IMG/VR virus record: IMGVR_UViG_3300037294_000436
Location: 1 to 35,349 of that record
DNA from: a virus
Strand: one strand, 5' to 3'
DNA: 35,349 nucleotides
Shown: positions 2,624 to 10,783 of the stretch, in pieces
How positions within the stretch are numbered: the first letter of the stretch is position 1
Layout of the letters: each line of letters begins with the position of its first letter
Made by a program: the position numbers and the translations under genes
The notes under the pieces: model-generated
What the model saw: only the letters and a program-made list of their open reading frames with translations
Told to the model about the DNA's origin: nothing
The model's database searches: none

Positions 2624-3203
2624 CGATGCTGTCACAGCAGGGGTAATAAATGATAAATACGCTCCAAGCTGGACGCTTTCTGGCTGCTATGGCGGTCGTG
2701 TTCCACCATGCTGTCATCAGCGTAACTGCCTTCGTAGAAACGCCACCAAAACTTGCGCAGGCCGTGCTGGAATACGGATATCTTGGAGTTGACTTCTTTT
2801 TTGTTTTATCAGGATTCATAATCCATTTCACAATGAATCTAAAACCGAGGCCAGCGACGCAGTTTGCGATTGATCGCCTTGGCAGAATACTTTTGCCTTA
2901 CTGGCCAATTGGTGTTGCCCTCGCGTTGGCTTACACTTTGCTTCCGTCTTTAAGCGATAGTGGCCGGGAGTGGAGTTGGGTTTCCACACTTACGTTGTTT
3001 CCAACGGAGCTGCCACCCGCACTCAGTGTGGCATGGACCTTACAACATGAACTTGTTTTTTATCTTTTGTATGCAGTACTCTTCTTCTCGAACAAAATTG
3101 TGATTGGACTGTTATTATGGGCCTTGGGGATCGTCGCCTTTTATATTTTTGGGGCGCCGGAATTTCCACTGCTGAGGATGGTGTTTGCTCCAATAAATTT
3201 TGA

Positions 3204-3219
3204 GGAACGTCTGAAAAAC
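3204..3219 (+). repeat. Left terminal inverted repeat of the IS5-family element
   Basis: GGAACGTCTGAAAAAC directly follows target duplication TTGA (3200-3203). It matches the inward-reading right end at 14 of 16 positions. Confidence 0.9.
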
Positions 3220-3275
3220 CTCCCGATTTTCTCCTGATCTGATAGACTTCGGCAATGCAACGAGGAGCCCTTCCG

Positions 3276-4232
3276 ATGCCGAAACAGCCCGCCTTTCCCG
3301 GTCTTCGCGATGCGATGAAGAAGAAGGTTACGCGGCGGGAGCGGTTCCTGGCGGAGATGGATGCGGCGGTGCCCTGGGGTCGTCTGCTAGCGCTGATCAC
3401 GCCACATTACCCGAAGACCGGGCTGAAGGGAGGGCGCCCGCCGATGCCGCTGGAGACTATGCTGCGGGTGTATTTCCTCCAGAACTGGTATGCGCTGAGC
3501 GACCCGATGGCCGAAGAGACGCTCTATGACAGCGAGGCGATGCGACGGTTCGCGGGGATCGAACTGGGCGACGACCGCATCCCCGACGAGACCACGATCC
3601 TCAACTTCCGCCACCTGCTGGAGCGTCATGGCCTGACCGAGGCGATCTTCGCGGACGTGAACGCGCACCTTGCCGACAAGGGGATCACCCTGCGCTCGGG
3701 GACCTTGGTCGATGCGACCATCATCGACGCGCCGTCCTCGACGAAGAACAAGGCCAGGGCGCGCGATCCCGAGATGTCATCCACGAAGAAGGGCAACGAC
3801 TGGTATTTCGGCATGAAAGCACACATCGGCGTGGATGTGGACAGCGGCGTGACCCACAGCCTCGAGACCTCGACGGCGAAGCTGCACGACAGCCAGGTAT
3901 GGGACGAACTGCTGCATGGTGATGAAACCTCTGTCTGGGCGGACAAGGGCTATGTCAGCGCCGAGCGCGAAGAAGCGTTCAAGGCGCCGGGCAAGATCTG
4001 GGGTGTCATGCGCAAGGCGCCGAAGGGTAGCCCACTGCATCCCCTCGACGCGCGCATCAACCGGACCATCGCGATGGTTAGGGCTAAGGTTGAGCATCCG
4101 TTCCGGGTGATCAAGCGTCAGTTTGGCCATGTTAAGACCCGCTACCGCGGCTTGGCCAAAAACCGCGCCCAACTCTTCACGCTGTTCGCACTCGGCAACC
4201 TGTTCCTGGTGCGAAGGAGGCTGATGGCATGA
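3276..4232 (+). CDS. IS5-family transposase
   Basis: This 318-residue DDE transposase mobilises the surrounding element. The catalytic triad is visible: D146 in GTLVDATII, D223 in VWADKGY, and E273 in VRAKVEHPF, followed by RVIKRQFG and KTRYRGL as in the IS5 group. The block KKGNDWYFGMKAHIGVD (172-188) is also typical. Length and all motifs are those of an intact enzyme. I chose the ATG at 3276 because GAGGAG lies nine bases upstream; an ATG seven codons earlier overlaps that ribosome site. The T-K-N-K and D-P-E-M-S-S-T-K-K-G blocks place it close to IS5 itself rather than the IS1031 or IS427 groups. Confidence 0.95.
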   Translation: MPKQPAFPGLRDAMKKKVTRRERFLAEMDAAVPWGRLLALITPHYPKTGLKGGRPPMPLETMLRVYFLQNWYALSDPMAEETLYDSEAMRRFAGIELGDDRIPDETTILNFRHLLERHGLTEAIFADVNAHLADKGITLRSGTLVDATIIDAPSSTKNKARARDPEMSSTKKGNDWYFGMKAHIGVDVDSGVTHSLETSTAKLHDSQVWDELLHGDETSVWADKGYVSAEREEAFKAPGKIWGVMRKAPKGSPLHPLDARINRTIAMVRAKVEHPFRVIKRQFGHVKTRYRGLAKNRAQLFTLFALGNLFLVRRRLMA

Positions 4233-4358
4233 GGACGAGTCTGCCCGAAAACCGCCAGACCTCCTCAACGGCGGGCCTGAAAGCACCAGACCAGCCACAA
4301 AAAGCCCGTCTCGCGGCGGCCGAGCCGATCAGGCAACCATCTTGGCGCAGCCGAAGCC

Positions 4359-4374
4359 GTTAATCAGACGTTCC
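4359..4374 (-). repeat. Right terminal inverted repeat of the IS5-family element
   Basis: Read on the minus strand it is GGAACGTCTGATTAAC. It is followed on the plus strand by the second TTGA target copy at 4375-4378. Confidence 0.9.
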
Positions 4375-4823
4375 TTGAGTTCATAGCAGGTGTCGCTGCT
4401 GCGTCTCTCTTTTTATCTAATCGCTCAATCCCAGCAGCTTGGTCGATCATTGTGGCAACTGCGTTTCTCTTGAGTTTCTTACTGCTGGGTGCCAATCGAA
4501 GTGAAAGCTGGTTAATTGGCTTTTCTATTGCATCATTATTGCCATTTCTATGTAAACTTGAAGTGGCAGGTTTTTTTGTTGTTCCTCGTTGGCTTGTGTT
4601 TGGTGGGGCAGCATCTTACGCGATTTATCTCACCCATAATCCCCTTCTGTCGTTTACGTCACGCATCTTGGGCTCCACTGACTTGGGTTGGATAATCGCT
4701 CTTGCGCTTTCGGCGATTTTATGTGGCGCATTTGGCGTTGCATATTACATGCTGTTAGAAAGACCAATCATGCGTTTTTACAAGCAACGGCAAGAAAAAT
4801 TAGCTTCAGCAAAGCCTATTTAA

Positions 4824-5120: not shown

Positions 5121-5849
5121 TCAAGGATCGCGTCGGCGATCGGCCAGCTGTACCCAAGGCAGGGCTTTTGGCATCGTTTCAGTCACCTTTACCTCCCGCA
5201 GCATCCCGCCCGTCACCAAGCCATCCCGCACCCAATTCAGCGCGACCCACCAATCCTCATAGCCGCATCGAGCGGAGGCTATCTGTTCCGGATGGGGCCG
5301 CCAGGTCACAGGACAGGCCCGAATGTCGACCGTCCGCCATTTCCCTTTGACCAGAATGCGCTCGGTTCCAACAACAACGCTGACAGCGCGATCACCATGC
5401 CGGTTCCGCTTTATGTCGACCGGCACACAGCGCGGCACAGCGCCTGGCATCCAGTCCGGGGTCAGCCCAGCGCGCGCGAGCTCTGCGACGCGGATCGCCA
5501 TGCGGATCCCGCCAAGGCTGTCAGGCATGCCTGCCACTGTGGCAGCGATCACCTCAGCATCCTCGTGGGTGCAGCTGCCGATCTTGTGCTGTCCACCGTC
5601 TACTTTGCAGCCCAGCGCCGCGCGTTGCATCAGGACGTATTCGAGACCAAAGCCAACCCCTTGCCCACGCTCGGGGTCCGGTGGCTCTGGAAGCTCCAGT
5701 TGCGCCTGTTCCTTGCCGAAGGCCCATTCCAGCGCCTGCTGCACGCTCATCACGCGCTTGGCTCGGCCCTGCTTGGCGTGCGATTGCTGTCCTGTTTCGG
5801 GAGCGCGCCTGCTTGTCTGCCCATGGAGCCTGCGATCAAACCTACTCAT
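5121..5849 (-). CDS. Conserved phage protein of unknown function, last gene of the early operon
   Basis: The product is a soluble protein of 242 residues with no signal peptide or membrane segment. After a basic N-terminus it has an acidic/proline stretch (ELPEPPDPE), a central block (THEDAEVIAATVAGMPDSLGG, then RVAELARAGLTPDWMPG) and a C-terminal block rich in Trp and Arg (ACPVTWRPHP, then YEDWWVALNWVRDGL). I recall similar proteins from Rhodobacteraceae prophages, annotated only as hypothetical. The ATG at 5849 overlaps the stop of the initiator gene as ATGA; the longer frame upstream is a shadow of that gene. Being last in the early operon, just before the late region in the circular order, it could regulate late transcription. 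That is inference from position, not from any motif. Confidence 0.75.
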   Translation of the reverse strand: MSRFDRRLHGQTSRRAPETGQQSHAKQGRAKRVMSVQQALEWAFGKEQAQLELPEPPDPERGQGVGFGLEYVLMQRAALGCKVDGGQHKIGSCTHEDAEVIAATVAGMPDSLGGIRMAIRVAELARAGLTPDWMPGAVPRCVPVDIKRNRHGDRAVSVVVGTERILVKGKWRTVDIRACPVTWRPHPEQIASARCGYEDWWVALNWVRDGLVTGGMLREVKVTETMPKALPWVQLADRRRDP

Positions 5850-6868
5850 AGCGCGCCTCGGGCGCGCAGCCGCTCGGTGGTCACCAGCCCCCGCTCCAGC
5901 ATGGCTGCGCACATGGCGTTGCTGATCATGCTGGCGGGCAGATATTCGTCGGAGTTGACCTTGGCAGCATAAAACGTGGCCAGCTCATCCGGGTTAGGCG
6001 GTGGCTTTCCTTGGCCCTTGCGGCTGCGCTTGGCTTTCTGCGTCCGGCCAGCTGCCGCCATCTGGGCATCGCGCTGGGCTGCGCGTTCCATGAACCGATC
6101 CAGCGCCTTGGGCCCATCTGGTGGGACAGGATGATCCTGCCTCGTCTCAGCTGCGATCTGGATGATCCGATCCTCGGACAATCCGAGGTCCTCGCTCCAG
6201 CGACGAATGTGCAACCGCGCGGGCTCGCCCTGCCACCAGGCCGGAAGGCTGGCATCGGCAGCAAAGCCCAGCGCCCCGAGCAGTTTGCCAAAGAAAATCT
6301 CAAAACTTGAATCTCGCGTCTGCGCGTCCTCCTCCTCCTTTACTGGTTTACTTAAAGGTTCCCTTACAAGGTTAGTGTCCGGATTCCGGACACGGCTTTG
6401 GTCATTTTCCGGACACGGGTCGGGGCAAAATCCGGACACGGCTTCCGCATCAATTCCGTGTCCGAATTCTGGACACGGCTCACCCGAAATGGGAACATCG
6501 GGGTCTATTCTAGCGGCCATTTCTGCGTCAAAGCCGATGGGCGCATTCCCGTGTCCGGTTTCCGGACATGGAGCCACATCAGCAGGTGTGAAGCCCGGCT
6601 CGAACCCCAAGATGTAGCGGGTTTGCATCTGGCGTTTGGTCACCGGGTCAATGCGGGGGACACGGCGCAACAAGCCTGTGGCCTCCAGCTGTCCGAGATG
6701 TTCATTCAAAGTTGATCGGCTGATCTCGCAATCATCGGCCAGCCGCACCTGTGAGGGAAAGCAGCCATAATCCGGATTGAATCGATCGCAGAGATGCCAG
6801 AGCACGATTTTGGTGGTCGGTTTTAAACCGCGCTGCTTGATTGCCCAATTGGTGGCTTCATGGCTCAT
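5846..6868 (-). CDS. Phage replication initiator-like protein with winged-helix N-terminus
   Basis: The 340-residue product starts SHEATNWAIKQRGLKPTTK, a typical opening of phage O-like or plasmid replication proteins with a helix-turn-helix domain. Residues 16-70 form the winged helix (KIVLWHLCDRFNPDYGCFPSQ, then CEISRSTLNEHLGQLEATGLL). The middle (about 100-190) is low-complexity and contains CPETGHG/CPEFGHG-type repeats, because this part of the gene carries iteron-like DNA repeats. The C-terminal third has an acidic and then a basic region. By analogy with lambda O it would bind the repeats and recruit host helicase, but no helicase domain is present. It overlaps the nuclease gene upstream and the next gene downstream by ATGA. 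Confidence 0.8.
   Translation of the reverse strand: MSHEATNWAIKQRGLKPTTKIVLWHLCDRFNPDYGCFPSQVRLADDCEISRSTLNEHLGQLEATGLLRRVPRIDPVTKRQMQTRYILGFEPGFTPADVAPCPETGHGNAPIGFDAEMAARIDPDVPISGEPCPEFGHGIDAEAVSGFCPDPCPENDQSRVRNPDTNLVREPLSKPVKEEEDAQTRDSSFEIFFGKLLGALGFAADASLPAWWQGEPARLHIRRWSEDLGLSEDRIIQIAAETRQDHPVPPDGPKALDRFMERAAQRDAQMAAAGRTQKAKRSRKGQGKPPPNPDELATFYAAKVNSDEYLPASMISNAMCAAMLERGLVTTERLRARGAL
6375..6569. repeat. Iteron-like array inside the initiator gene, putative replication origin
   Basis: The 9-bp unit TCCGGACAC or its complement occurs eight times, some with one mismatch. It forms three 19-bp dyads (6375-6393 perfect; 6458-6476 and 6551-6569 with one mismatch) and two single copies (6408-6416 and 6431-6439). 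The dyads share the same geometry, 9 + 1 + 9. The array sits in the middle of the initiator coding region, as the lambda origin sits inside gene O. The encoded peptide repeats (CPExGHG) look like a by-product of conserved DNA. AT-rich sequence follows at 6330-6375 (cttaaaggttcccttacaag), a possible melting region. Confidence 0.7.
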
Positions 6869-7260
6869 GGTGCTGCCCTCCCAACATGGGCAGCGATGCG
6901 CGAAGTGAACCCATGATCGGCCAGCGCGCCCAGCGCGTTATCAAGCGAGCGTACCAAGGCCCAACCAAAGCCCTGCGCCAGCACAGCGTCGCGAAACGCC
7001 TCCTGCGCTGGGCTAAGCTTGCCCTTGAGCGATTTCAGCTCCAAAAACAGCACGCGCCCGTCACAAAGGATCACCAGATCGGCAAAGCCGGGATGAACGC
7101 CCATGCCGACTAGAATCGCTTGGCGCTTGGCACCGCGCGGGCCTGCTTCGGTGACCTCATTGACGCAGTGTTGGATTATCGCACCTTTGGGCAAAGCGAA
7201 GCGCAAAGCCACGACGACAGCGCGCTGCAGATCAGCCTCGGGAGTACCACGCCGCTTCAT
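6865..7260 (-). CDS. VRR-NUC domain nuclease
   Basis: This 131-residue stand-alone VRR-NUC protein is of the PD-(D/E)XK endonuclease superfamily. Visible motifs are an N-terminal Glu in GTPEADLQ (E8), the block GVHPGFADLVIL with D61, LFLELKS with E74 and K76, and LSPAQ with Q86. This is the complete active-site set, and the length is normal for phage members. Such proteins cut branched or otherwise structured DNA and are frequent in phage replication modules. It is embedded in the early operon, overlapping the genes on both sides by ATGA, which fits a role in processing replication or recombination intermediates. The exact substrate is unknown. Confidence 0.9.
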   Translation of the reverse strand: MKRRGTPEADLQRAVVVALRFALPKGAIIQHCVNEVTEAGPRGAKRQAILVGMGVHPGFADLVILCDGRVLFLELKSLKGKLSPAQEAFRDAVLAQGFGWALVRSLDNALGALADHGFTSRIAAHVGRAAP

Positions 7261-7535
7261 CGACGGTCCTCCGGTTCTGGCCGGAGGCGCTCGTCACGAC
7301 CGGGCGCTTTGGCATCAACGATCAAGAGCAGGATGCGCGCGTCCTCGCGCTCCTCTGGCGTCTCTCCGTGCTGGACCAAAACCTTGCACGCCATGCGCAG
7401 CAAGTGGTCGGAATGATGCACGACGTCGGCCACAACAATTCGGGCTTCGCGCCGACGCTCATCGATCCAGTCCTGGCGGGCTTCATCGCGTTCAGCGCGC
7501 TGGCTGCGCTTGCGAAAAGGGTGGGGCACGCTCAT
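7257..7535 (-). CDS. Small charged protein of the early operon, unknown function
   Basis: The 92-residue protein starts MSVPHPFRKRSQRAERDEAR. It is rich in Arg, Glu and Asp, mostly helical in appearance, with no membrane segment or known motif. The ATG at 7535 is chosen because it overlaps the stop of the excisionase-like gene as ATGA; the longer frame upstream lies within that gene and has shadow composition. Gene order suggests a role in early replication or regulation. Confidence 0.7.
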   Translation of the reverse strand: MSVPHPFRKRSQRAERDEARQDWIDERRREARIVVADVVHHSDHLLRMACKVLVQHGETPEEREDARILLLIVDAKAPGRDERLRPEPEDRR

Positions 7536-7807
7536 CGCCGCCCCCGAGGGTTTTTTCCTGCGCACCGGGATGAGGCATTGCGATCCTGCTCCTGCGCCAG
7601 AAGCCAAGCACGCACGGTGTCGCGTCGGTAGAGCACCTTGCGCCCGACTTGGGTCGGCGCAGGGCCAATGCGCCGGGCGGTCCAGCGACAAAGTGTTTCT
7701 GGGGTCAGGTCCAGTTCAGCGGCGAGTTCCGCGCGGCTCATCCATTCCGACAGCATGGGCCGGGTGCCAACACCGCCCATTGTGCTGTCCAATTCGAGGT
7801 CAGACAT
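7532..7807 (-). CDS. Excisionase/AlpA-like helix-turn-helix DNA-binding protein
   Basis: The 91-residue protein has a MerR/HTH_17-type fold at about residues 23-72: MSRAELAAELDLTPETLCRW, then a Lys-x-Leu-Tyr-Arg-Arg-x-x-Val-xx-Trp-Leu wing (KVLYRRDTVRAWL). This is the usual layout of phage excisionases and AlpA-type activators. I chose the ATG at 7807 because AAGGAG lies six bases upstream; the in-frame ATG two codons earlier would touch that site. It is the first gene of the five-gene early operon, just downstream of operator-like repeats, so it may act both as directionality factor for the integrase and as early regulator. Confidence 0.8.
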   Translation of the reverse strand: MSDLELDSTMGGVGTRPMLSEWMSRAELAAELDLTPETLCRWTARRIGPAPTQVGRKVLYRRDTVRAWLLAQEQDRNASSRCAGKNPRGRR

Positions 7808-7871: not shown

Positions 7872-7924
7872 CCGGAATTTAGGAATAAACCGGAATAAAT
7901 ACGCCGGGACTTATTCCGGTTATT
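7872..7924. promoter_or_regulatory. Operator-like repeats in front of the early operon
   Basis: A 22-bp element at 7872-7893, starting CCGGAATTTAGG and ending AATAAACCGG, recurs with one mismatch at 10360-10381 in front of int. It is followed by GGAATAAA (7892-7899) and by an inverted copy, TTATTCCGGTTATT (7911-7924). The repeats lie 65-117 bp upstream of the first early gene and include TTGATT-like promoter sequence on the minus strand at their distal edge. This is the expected place for a repressor to block the early promoter. Confidence 0.65.
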
Positions 7925-8378
7925 GAGAATCAATGACTTACATAGCTTTTAGGGTGCTACAGCGACGGCTCATTTGACCTGAGTAGGCAGAATCAATCCC
8001 TGGACACAGTTAAACCGACAGGTCGGCACGGGCCTTATGTTGCCTGAGGCGTGTGTCCTTGCTGTGCGCCGTTGGGCATTGCGGTCAGCCCGTTGTGCAC
8101 ATTGGTTTGGATTTTGCCGCTATTTTGAATGACCACCAGTGATAGAGCAAACGTCAGTCGTGATTTTCTCGCGCGGGAACAGATGGTTGGGGTTCGATCC
8201 GGAAATATTATTAGGGACTTCACGCACTTCCCAAAGGGTCACTGACCGCAGGGCCGTGCCGCTGTGCCCGACGGCTTCCGGCATCGGGCCGGAGCCGCAT
8301 TCTGCGATCCGGCACGCTGATACCGCAGTGGCCGGAATTGCCGAGCGCACCGGCGTTGCGGAGAAAAAGGAAACTGAC
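7925..8378. other. Intergenic region between divergent early genes
   Basis: These 454 bases separate the minus-strand early operon from the plus-strand 8379-9005 gene. The open frame continues upstream of 8379 to 8139, but its translation lacks a ribosome site and has random-looking composition. Several short CCGGAA and CCGGCA elements occur (8198, 8310, 8331), related to the operator core. I cannot define a promoter with confidence. Confidence 0.4.
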
Positions 8379-9005
8379 ATGCCAAAGATTTCGAGGGCAT
8401 TTTTCTATTTGACCGAGTTGCCGATTCGTTGGGGGCGCAGCCTGCCCGAGATTACGGGCTGGGCGCTCGCAGGGCGGCTTAACCTCATGGTCCCGATCGC
8501 GCCCGTGCAATGCGGGATTGAGCGCGCGAGTGGGATTGTCCGCGTGCGGGCGGAGGACGTGGCCCGGCTGTTTCACCCGGATCATCCAATACACTTGTCT
8601 TGTGCGGTCATTCGCATCCTGCCGACGGGTGCGTTGGACCCGGTGTATGTGACGGACCCCGCAGGCGGAATCGAGGTCCGGCTGCGTGATCTGATGCTGG
8701 ACGCTGAAGAAGTCAGCGATTTTGAGCAGGTCAATGACTTACTGGGCATCGGCACGCGATCCACCCGGAAAAAGACCGGTGGGAATTCTGGCCAGGGGCG
8801 CCCTGCAGCATACGAATGGGAAACCATGCTGGTGGATGTAATGATCGATATTTCCGAAAACGGTTTACCGGACAAGCAGGACGACTTCTTGAAGCTGATC
8901 CTCGATTGGTTCACCGTGAACAGCGCTGATGGCATGGTGCCGGAGGTCAGCACGGTTCGGAAGCGCTACGCGCCGATTTGGTGGCGGCTGCACGACCGGC
9001 TCTGA
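8379..9005 (+). CDS. Unknown protein between integrase and early operon, candidate lysogeny regulator
   Basis: The 208-residue protein starts MPKISRAFFYLTELPIRWGR. The ATG at 8379 is preceded by AAGGAA at seven bases. The N-terminal block continues LPEITGWALAGRL, which could be a degenerate DNA-binding or sensor helix pair. The middle is beta-rich (VRVRAEDVARLFHP, then VRLRDLMLDAEEVSDFE). A Gly/Lys linker leads to a helical C-terminal block (YEWETMLVDVMIDISENGLP, then FTVNSADGMVPEVSTVRKRY, then APIWWRL). I recall relatives only as hypothetical proteins beside integrases in alphaproteobacteria. It is the one gene transcribed against the early operon and int, and its flanks carry the shared operator-like sites. 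By position it is the best candidate for the immunity repressor or lysis-lysogeny switch; no canonical CI-like motif is seen. Confidence 0.8.
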   Translation: MPKISRAFFYLTELPIRWGRSLPEITGWALAGRLNLMVPIAPVQCGIERASGIVRVRAEDVARLFHPDHPIHLSCAVIRILPTGALDPVYVTDPAGGIEVRLRDLMLDAEEVSDFEQVNDLLGIGTRSTRKKTGGNSGQGRPAAYEWETMLVDVMIDISENGLPDKQDDFLKLILDWFTVNSADGMVPEVSTVRKRYAPIWWRLHDRL

Positions 9006-9042
9006 AAAATGAAACCGAGGGCTGCGATCACGCAGTCCTCGG
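9006..9042. terminator. Shared terminator hairpin between converging genes
   Basis: A stem CCGAGG-(bulge)-CTGCG with loop ATCA pairs across 9015-9042. On the minus strand it is followed by TTTCATTTTTC, so it ends integrase transcription; it overlaps the last codons of int. On the plus strand the T run is weak. Confidence 0.65.
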
Positions 9043-10287
9043 CGTCTTATCGCTTGAATGCACAAGTTTTGGGCGCGCGCTAAAGATACTTGCCACCGCA
9101 TTGACGCCCTCTCTCAGTGGGGTGTCCATCAGATGGGCATAGCGCTGCGTGGTGGTCATCTGCGTGTGCCCAAGTAGTCGACCAATCATTTCAAGCGACG
9201 CCCCGCCGCTCACGAGGAGCGAGGCAAACGTGTGGCGCAGGTCGTGGATGCGGACGCCCTCGATTTGCGCCTCCTTCTGCATCCTGATCCAGAAACGGCG
9301 GATTTCCTGCACTGGCTGGCCCGGTGTGTCTCCGGGAAATAGCCATGGGCAGCCCTTGGGCACGATCAGGCGCTGTTGCCGGACCAACTTGGCTGCATCG
9401 TTAGAAATCGGGATGCGGTGAATTTTGCGCTGCTTGGTAGTCGCCGCAGGTTTGGACCAGCTGCCAAACTCGAGGTTAAAATCCTCAAACCGCGCTGTGC
9501 GCACCTCGCCGACGCGCGAACCCGTCAACATGCACATGCGAATGATCGCAGAGCCCCGTTGATCTTCGGCACAATCCAGCGCAGCTGCAAGGCGTTCGAT
9601 CTCCTCTAAGCTCAAAAAGCGTTCTCGACTGTTTTCTGTGCGTTGATGGAATTTCTGCGCCGGATTATCCCTTCGCCATTCCCATTCGATCGCAAGGTTG
9701 AACATCTTGCGCAAGACTTGCCCCAAACGATTGGCGCGGATCGGTGTGGGCTTTGCGCCCTGCAACTTGCGCGCACGATTGTTTGGTTTTTTCTTGTGCG
9801 GCCGCGCACGGCCCTTGGCCACCTCGTCGAGTAGAAGCGCGACATCGCGCTTGGAAATTTCTGTCACCAGCCGCGTTCCCCAAGCCGGTTCGACCATCTT
9901 GCGCATCATCGAGATCTGGTCTGCCTGTGAGCGCGGTGCCAAGCGTGGCAAATGCTCTTCGATGTAGCGATCAACCATGTCGCTCACCGTGGGGGCCGTG
10001 CGCTGCTGATCCCGTGCACTGTGGGGGTCTATATCTGCATCAATCTGGCGGCGCAGCTCTTTGGCGCGTTCACGAGCCGCGGCAACTGTCCATTCCGGCC
10101 ACGGCCCAATCCGGTATCGGCGCTGCCGTCCGTTGATGCGGTAGTCCATAGTGAACGCGCGACTGCCAGAACGATAGATCCTGATCGCGAAGCCCGCGAT
10201 GTCGCTGTCGAATATCTGATAGTCGCGCCCCACTTTTGGCGTCGCGCCGCGAACTAGTTTTTCGTTTATTTTCAATTTTGTAGGCAT
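9028..10287 (-). CDS. int: Tyrosine-recombinase integrase (DUF4102/P4-type)
   Basis: The enzyme has 419 residues and recombines phage and host attachment sites. The N-terminal arm-binding domain (1-95) has the DUF4102 pattern (DSDIAGFAIRIYRSGSRAF, then RYRIGPWPEWTVAAAR). A core-binding helical domain spans about 96-215. The catalytic domain has R258 in LTGSRVGEVR, a Lys near 285-288, HDLRH with H348 and R351, LLGH with H374, and nucleophile Y383 in TQRYAHL; all key residues are present. The ATG at 10287 has GGGAG six bases upstream. The gene reads away from an att site built from the 3' half of tRNA-fMet at 10715-10762, which it presumably uses. An operator-like copy 73 bp upstream suggests co-regulation with the early operon. 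Confidence 0.97.
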   Translation of the reverse strand: MPTKLKINEKLVRGATPKVGRDYQIFDSDIAGFAIRIYRSGSRAFTMDYRINGRQRRYRIGPWPEWTVAAARERAKELRRQIDADIDPHSARDQQRTAPTVSDMVDRYIEEHLPRLAPRSQADQISMMRKMVEPAWGTRLVTEISKRDVALLLDEVAKGRARPHKKKPNNRARKLQGAKPTPIRANRLGQVLRKMFNLAIEWEWRRDNPAQKFHQRTENSRERFLSLEEIERLAAALDCAEDQRGSAIIRMCMLTGSRVGEVRTARFEDFNLEFGSWSKPAATTKQRKIHRIPISNDAAKLVRQQRLIVPKGCPWLFPGDTPGQPVQEIRRFWIRMQKEAQIEGVRIHDLRHTFASLLVSGGASLEMIGRLLGHTQMTTTQRYAHLMDTPLREGVNAVASIFSARPKLVHSSDKTPRTA

Positions 10288-10359
10288 CTGAACTCCCTTG
10301 TTGAAGTTGCTAACAGGCGTAGATTCGCGCCTCTATCAAGTTCAACCACGCCCAGTGCG

Positions 10360-10381
10360 CCGGAATTCAGGAATAAACCGG
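10360..10381. promoter_or_regulatory. Operator-like site in front of int
   Basis: These 22 bp, starting CCGGAATTCAGG and ending AATAAACCGG, match the 7872-7893 site at 21 of 22 positions. A related TTATTCCG follows at 10399-10406. It lies 73 bp upstream of the int start, where a regulator could control integrase expression. Confidence 0.65.
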
Positions 10382-10714
10382 CGAAAGAAGGGATGGGATT
10401 ATTCCGCAAGGCGCGCCCCCGCGATGAAAGAGTGCCCTTTGGCCAGCGAACTTACTCACGGCTGACAGGCCTTCTTTATCCGTGCACTTTGGAAAGCGCT
10501 CTGCGGTTTTTGGCTTGTTCGGAAGCGATTATTGCGATTATGATCGTCGCAATCCACGTCAACAATACGTCAACCAACTGATCACATGCCGGAGCCTGCT
10601 TACGCTGTTTCAACGCACTCAAGCGCAATCAAGATCAAGAGCCAAAGTTGCGAGATATCAAACGGTTGCCGGTAAATAATTGAAAAATAAAGATTGTTTA
10701 AAAACAAGGAGTTA
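10382..10714. other. Spacer between int promoter region and att site
   Basis: A 62-codon plus-strand frame (10393-10581) ends with a hydrophobic stretch (FLACSEAIIAIMIVAIHV), but its ribosome site is poor and I do not recognise it. The last 60 bases are very A+T-rich, as is common on the phage side of an attachment core. Confidence 0.35.
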
Positions 10715-10762
10715 GGGCTCATAACCTGAAGGTCGTAGGTTCAAATCCTACTCCCGCAACCA
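10715..10762 (+). other. Attachment-site core: 3' half of a tRNA-fMet gene
   Basis: The 48 bases run from the anticodon arm (GGGCTCATAACC, anticodon CAT) through the T arm (GGTTCAAATCC) and acceptor strand (ACTCCCGCAACCA) of an initiator tRNA. No 5' half is present upstream, so this is a tRNA fragment carried by the phage, not a working tRNA gene. Integrases that use tRNA genes carry such a fragment to restore the tRNA on insertion. It sits between int and the late-operon terminator, the normal attP position. Confidence 0.85.
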
Positions 10763-10783
10763 AAATACTACACGATATCAAAG

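Follow-up and report, generated by a model that had tools for sequence, protein, structure and literature searches.

Which protein reads the two near-identical DNA elements that precede the early operon and the integrase gene (int) of this phage, and what is controlled through them? The window, i.e. the whole 35,349-nt stretch of an IMG/VR virus record that was analysed, contains an attP-like tRNA-Met 3' end adjoining a tyrosine integrase gene, with late genes running leftward from about 34.6 to 11.2 kb and early genes running leftward from 7.8 kb (Table 1). It represents a phage of marine bacteria, the near relatives of which lie in genomes of the Rhodobacterales Oceaniglobus and Aliiroseovarius, and no description of this phage family was found in the open-access literature. 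Oceaniglobus has a complete tRNA-Met gene, part of which is repeated by the attP core. Similar clusters of polysaccharide genes adjoin the phage module in Oceaniglobus (L106-L108) and Aliiroseovarius (L109-L111); in Oceaniglobus the cluster sits between the phage module and the complete tRNA-Met gene. Elsewhere in the window, a transposase-like ORF (3255-4232), IS5-like by eye, seems to split an acyltransferase-like gene (2650-4823).

Table 1. Coordinates of the genes, operators and attachment site discussed in the text.
Feature	Position	Strand	Evidence
Replication initiation O-like gene, early operon	5846-6868	-	domain matches and order kept in relatives
VRR-NUC-like gene, early operon	6865-7260	-	domain matches and order kept in relatives
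Remainder of conserved early operon after xis	5846..7260	-	VRR-NUC-like and replication O-like genes
Xis-like protein, 91 aa, HTH_17/excisionase family, first early-operon gene	7532..7807	-	Pfam, phrog, profile, co-variation
xis/early-operon operator	7872..7919	-	22-mer match, half-sites, copies in relatives
xis operator box 1, CCGGAAT, inverted	7919-7913	-	
xis operator box 2, ATTCCGG, tandem	7896-7890	-	
xis operator box 3, ATTCCT, tandem	7887-7881	-	
xis operator box 4, ATTCCGG, tandem	7878-7872	-	
208-aa conserved protein, phrog_13283	8379..9005	+	protein-family searches, structure prediction
Tyrosine integrase, 419 aa: Arm-DNA-bind_3, Phage_int_M, Phage_integrase	9028..10287	-	domain matches
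TTGATA of CTTGATA-N11-TCTACGCCT block	10334..10339 (block 10316-10340)	-	conserved between int operator and int
int operator, layout as xis operator	10360..10407	-	22-mer match, 47-nt repeat, relatives
attP core, 3' part of tRNA-Met gene	10715..10764 (about)	+	matches annotated tRNA-Met

The 22-mers at 7872-7893 and 10360-10381 are identical at 21 of 22 bases, with no such match expected by chance, and no other two 22-mers anywhere in the 35-kb window agree to within one mismatch. In a first-order Markov control, one of 100 simulated windows had any such pair. The first site lies 64 bp upstream of the ATG of the xis-like gene (7807, minus strand) and the second is 72 bp upstream of the ATG of int (10287, minus strand). 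Related half-sites flank both of them: TTATTCCGG at 7890-7898 (minus strand) and 7911-7919 (plus strand) on the early-operon side, and TTATTCCTG and TTATTCCGC at 10368-10376 (minus strand) and 10399-10407 (plus strand), respectively, on the int side. The repeat around the 22-mers reaches 47 nt at 74% identity. The initial annotation had described these sites and their flanking half-sites correctly, but its 22-bp unit has to be redrawn, as the true element is not a 22-bp palindrome; it consists of four boxes (about 47 bp), one inverted and three in tandem at 9-bp steps. In the direction of transcription (minus strand), the xis operator reads CCGGAAT, about 16 bases, ATTCCGG, TTTATTCCT, and AAATTCCGG, and the int operator has a degenerate box 2 (CCGGCGA on the plus strand) and box 1 (ATTCCGC on the plus strand). 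The 22-mer of the window has zero exact matches in viral contigs. The CTTGATA-N11-TCTACGCCT block is also present upstream of int in most relatives and is possibly a core promoter element; a scan with the consensus sigma-70 sequence found no promoter above chance.

A profile search with the family of the 208-aa protein, which is encoded between xis and int in the window, identified relatives in 50 of 395 Rhodobacterales genomes, and the phage family is common in this order. The module of int, the 208-aa gene, xis, VRR-NUC-like, and replication O-like genes is conserved in 64 loci, in two arrangements (36 vs 28 loci). A search for co-occurring operators beside homologous int-adjacent genes had been proposed with the initial annotation, and the pair was indeed found: in 62 of the 64 loci the best ungapped match of the int-upstream region to the xis-upstream region beats all 600 shuffles (median score 28.8, against 13.4 for the largest of the 600 shuffles). 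The pair is likewise present in 29 of 29 further viral contigs containing both upstream regions, which brings the paired sites to 91 of 93 related phage loci, although some of these contigs may duplicate prophages already among the genome loci. Integrase relatives in viral contigs (L003, L004, and L007) and in genomes (L008 and L009) contain the element, which precedes both int and xis in those of them that include both upstream regions. About 9-13 classes of box sequence can be distinguished, depending on the threshold, including CCGGAAT, GGGTGGC, ACTGCCGG, TTCCACC, TTCCGGTC, and others. The box sequence varies between phages and the architecture persists, with tandem boxes at 9-bp steps in the operators of the window and of its relatives.

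Variations on this layout were also observed. A third palindromic site (GGGTGGC...GCCACCC) is present in the xis-int intergenic region of 28 divergent loci (e.g. L005, L048, L052, and L057), midway between the xis and int operators and about 180 bp from each (offsets e.g. 88/115, 273/298, 453/480/498), and its even placement suggests DNA looping. An extra CCGGAA/TTCCGG pair occurs in several loci of the other arrangement. Four loci (L085, L097, L098, and L099) have xis, the 208-aa gene, and int, but are without the usual adjoining VRR-NUC and replication genes; perhaps they are other kinds of mobile island.

The initial annotation had seen no CI, Cro, or LexA-like gene, and this holds in a wider search: no match to a CI/Cro/S24 or LexA-type repressor was obtained among ten scanned window proteins, and reading through the genes of the complete Aliiroseovarius prophage G002 (about 39 kb), some of which were also scanned against Pfam, revealed no recognisable CI/Cro/LexA-type gene. 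Oceaniglobus L008 was rejected as a complete prophage, since it has the early module and no recognisable structural genes; therefore, G002 was the only complete relative prophage used for this check. The only HTH_3 match in G002 is a HigA-like antitoxin, below the cut-off, and the region that matches the missing end of the window has only small genes without known function. In some loci, a WYL/WCX-domain regulator of about 330 aa is encoded between the 208-aa gene and xis (L054, L055, L059, L061, and L065) or beyond the 208-aa gene (L050 and L051), and it is a candidate repressor in that subset. In L005 (8747-9963), an XRE-type HTH gene followed by an ORF that looks by eye like a reverse transcriptase lies between the 208-aa gene and the att sequence.

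Two phage proteins had been put forward as binders of the operators, the 208-aa protein as first choice and the excisionase-like protein as second. The Xis-like protein matches Pfam HTH_17 (29.7 bits vs a cut-off of 27, E 7.8e-7) and phrog_66, 'excisionase and transcriptional regulator' (E 1.9e-9), and its profile matches the structures of gpNu1, lambda Xis, and RdfS, the last one weakly (E 0.058). Its recognition helix reads PETLCRW in the window, and its gene sits with a tyrosine integrase gene in an integrating element, both in the window and in the relatives. Excision factors of this type usually bind at repeats arranged in tandem, with a spacing of about one helical turn (PMC7498355).

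The 208-aa protein is conserved yet fits no family. It has no Pfam or NCBIfam family match and belongs to phrog_13283, a group without assigned function, which agrees with the earlier description of a product with no recognisable domain; however, HTH_17 is matched in two of its 39 relatives (best E 0.0068), and structure prediction points to a domain. An earlier model from six sequences was poor, and an AlphaFold2 model from 37 sequences is good (mean pLDDT 82). In the latter, the N-terminus (residues ~8-65) is predicted to form, judging by the order of its elements, a MerR/HTH_17-like winged helix (strand-helix-helix-strand-strand-helix), followed by strands in the middle and three C-terminal helices. 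The fold search proposed with the initial annotation gave no match at E<=0.001 in PDB or BFVD for this model, and the sequence as query had no match in viral contigs or the phage collection. Since no other conserved gene runs opposite to the early operon and the 208-aa gene lies beside int/xis in nearly all loci, the 208-aa protein could be an operator-binding repressor, a substitute for CI that keeps int and the early operon silent during lysogeny, and the predicted winged helix would suit this role.

Co-variation across 47 dereplicated loci argues otherwise. Operator distance correlates with Xis distance (rho 0.74), and the partial correlation given the 208-aa protein and Int is 0.50 (permutation p 0.003), as compared with 0.03 (p 0.36) for the 208-aa protein, by shuffles that do not fully remove shared ancestry. 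Because xis and its operator are neighbours on the DNA, co-inheritance alone could yield a correlation, and the int-side operator was therefore tested separately. Its partial correlation is 0.375 with Xis, 0.166 with the adjacent Int, and 0.068 with the 208-aa protein. The operator classes thus diverge together with Xis. When operator class was the target, residue x in TLxRW of Xis ranked 1-3 among about 340 variable columns drawn from the three proteins (Xis, the 208-aa protein, and Int) in 12 of 12 settings, and was first in eight of them. It aligns to Arg22 of lambda Xis. The helix bearing this arginine sits in the major groove, and the arginine makes contacts to Glu19 and to a phosphate (PMC7145599). 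In the remaining four settings, the first rank was taken by residue E in RAEDV of the 208-aa protein, whose power to predict the operator class comes close to that of the Xis residue.

Natural exchanges and losses point in the same direction. Between L078/L080 and L071/L095, the Xis proteins are 96-100% identical and the operators match, and the 208-aa proteins are only about 52-54% identical. In L147, only the final 19 codons of the 208-aa gene are left, which may reflect a recent deletion, and in L149 no part of the gene was found; the operator pair is kept in both, with a modest score (16.8) in L149. L147 and L148 look like decaying prophages. In the divergent loci, operator copies near the promoter of the 208-aa gene itself were not beyond chance. 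Overall, co-variation, the swap, and the loss loci favour Xis over the 208-aa protein, which is still a candidate on account of its one correlating residue. The Xis-like winged-helix protein is most likely the reader of both operators, and a repressor role of the 208-aa protein at these sites appears unlikely.

Both proteins might act at the sites, competing or in a joint complex, to form a bistable switch similar to the mutual repression of XisF4 and Pf4r in Pf4. Both seem to have winged-helix domains, each supplies a top-scoring residue, and their gene neighbourhood is conserved; however, the same swap and loss data count against joint action, as does profile comparison, in which the 208-aa family and Xis have no significant kinship, and such an arrangement is rather improbable. 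Alternatively, the sites may serve recombination instead of transcription, as arm-type sites of the integrase or attachment sites of the excisionase. Int has an arm-binding domain, and the int-side site is between int and attP in the window, about 0.34 kb from attP. The second copy is about 2.8 kb away from attP, both copies are more than 4 kb from the tRNA-Met att sequence in L005/L006, and the int-side operator tracks Int less than Xis, all of which make this very unlikely. A prophage without its own repressor may depend on its host, but reading of the sites by a host regulator such as LexA is hardly credible, as the window has no GTTC-N7-GTTC box and the operator sequence varies among phages of one bacterial order, as expected of phage-encoded specificity.

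The paired operators therefore remain best read as sites through which one phage protein, Xis as the likeliest, probably co-regulates the early (xis-replication) operon and int. In a possible scheme, Xis, the first product of the early operon, would load on the inverted box and on the tandem boxes spaced 9 bp apart. As the analogous cases of RdfS, Apl, and TorI suggest, it would probably limit its own operon and tune int, keeping excision coupled to the onset of lytic growth. A role of the operators in maintaining lysogeny would be a further step, for which the candidates are the 208-aa protein or, in some relatives, the WYL-domain regulator. A counterpoint to the assignment to Xis is that an inverted box, together with the third palindromic site of the divergent loci, is more typical of a repressor that binds as a dimer than of a plain filament of excisionase.

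If extended to the whole family, the comparison may lead to a bolder proposal, tentative and somewhat unlikely as it stands. This large Rhodobacterales temperate phage family would lack a CI-type repressor altogether, the excisionase would be the lysogeny regulator that gives specificity, Xis and the paired operators (triple and evenly spaced in many phages) would define immunity groups, and the 208-aa winged-helix protein would be a new partner or anti-regulator. The usual picture of excision factors is that of helpers with weak sequence specificity, whereas sharply defined, matched operators occur here family-wide. Since the operator classes diverged together with one recognition-helix residue, they offer a natural data set for the DNA-recognition code of winged helices, and they predict which prophages should cross-regulate. 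The locus also draws attention to a widespread set of marine prophages without a recognised lysogeny repressor.

The initial annotation had suggested an undescribed mechanism, which is only partly right, as excisionases that regulate int and their own promoter are already known. RdfS of ICEMlSymR7A from Mesorhizobium binds both its own promoter and attP, which lies upstream of intS; it raises intS expression and lowers that of rdfS (PMC11963761). It is likewise an alphaproteobacterial winged-helix excision factor with sites at int and its own promoter, to which the presumed occupancy of the window sites by Xis would correspond. However, no consensus motif was found for RdfS, whereas the window sites match at 21 of 22 bases and diversify in clear classes, and RdfS is part of an integrative conjugative element that has the activator FseA, no such activator being seen in the window phage. 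Apl of coliphage 186 is an excisionase that also regulates early promoters via direct repeats one helical turn apart (PMC7498355). In contrast, Apl binds at att and in the interval from pR to pL, instead of at a matched set of int and xis sites that includes an inverted box. Coliphage 186 also has a CI repressor. TorI, the excision factor of KplE1, regulates the integrase gene intS (PMC2951348); however, it acts via the attL region overlapping the int promoter, unlike the int operator of the window, about 340 bp from the att core, and those of L005/L006 at >4 kb. In Pf4, the excisionase XisF4 takes part in the lysis-lysogeny decision opposite a second, divergently encoded regulator, Pf4r (PMC7379572). 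Pf4r is repressor c with shown immunity, whereas the 208-aa protein shows no relation by profile, and any immunity function of it would be hypothetical. What appears to be new, judging from the open-access literature, is that operators of defined sequence occur in pairs, that they have split into classes along with Xis throughout a large phage family, and that an unclassified 208-aa partner accompanies them.
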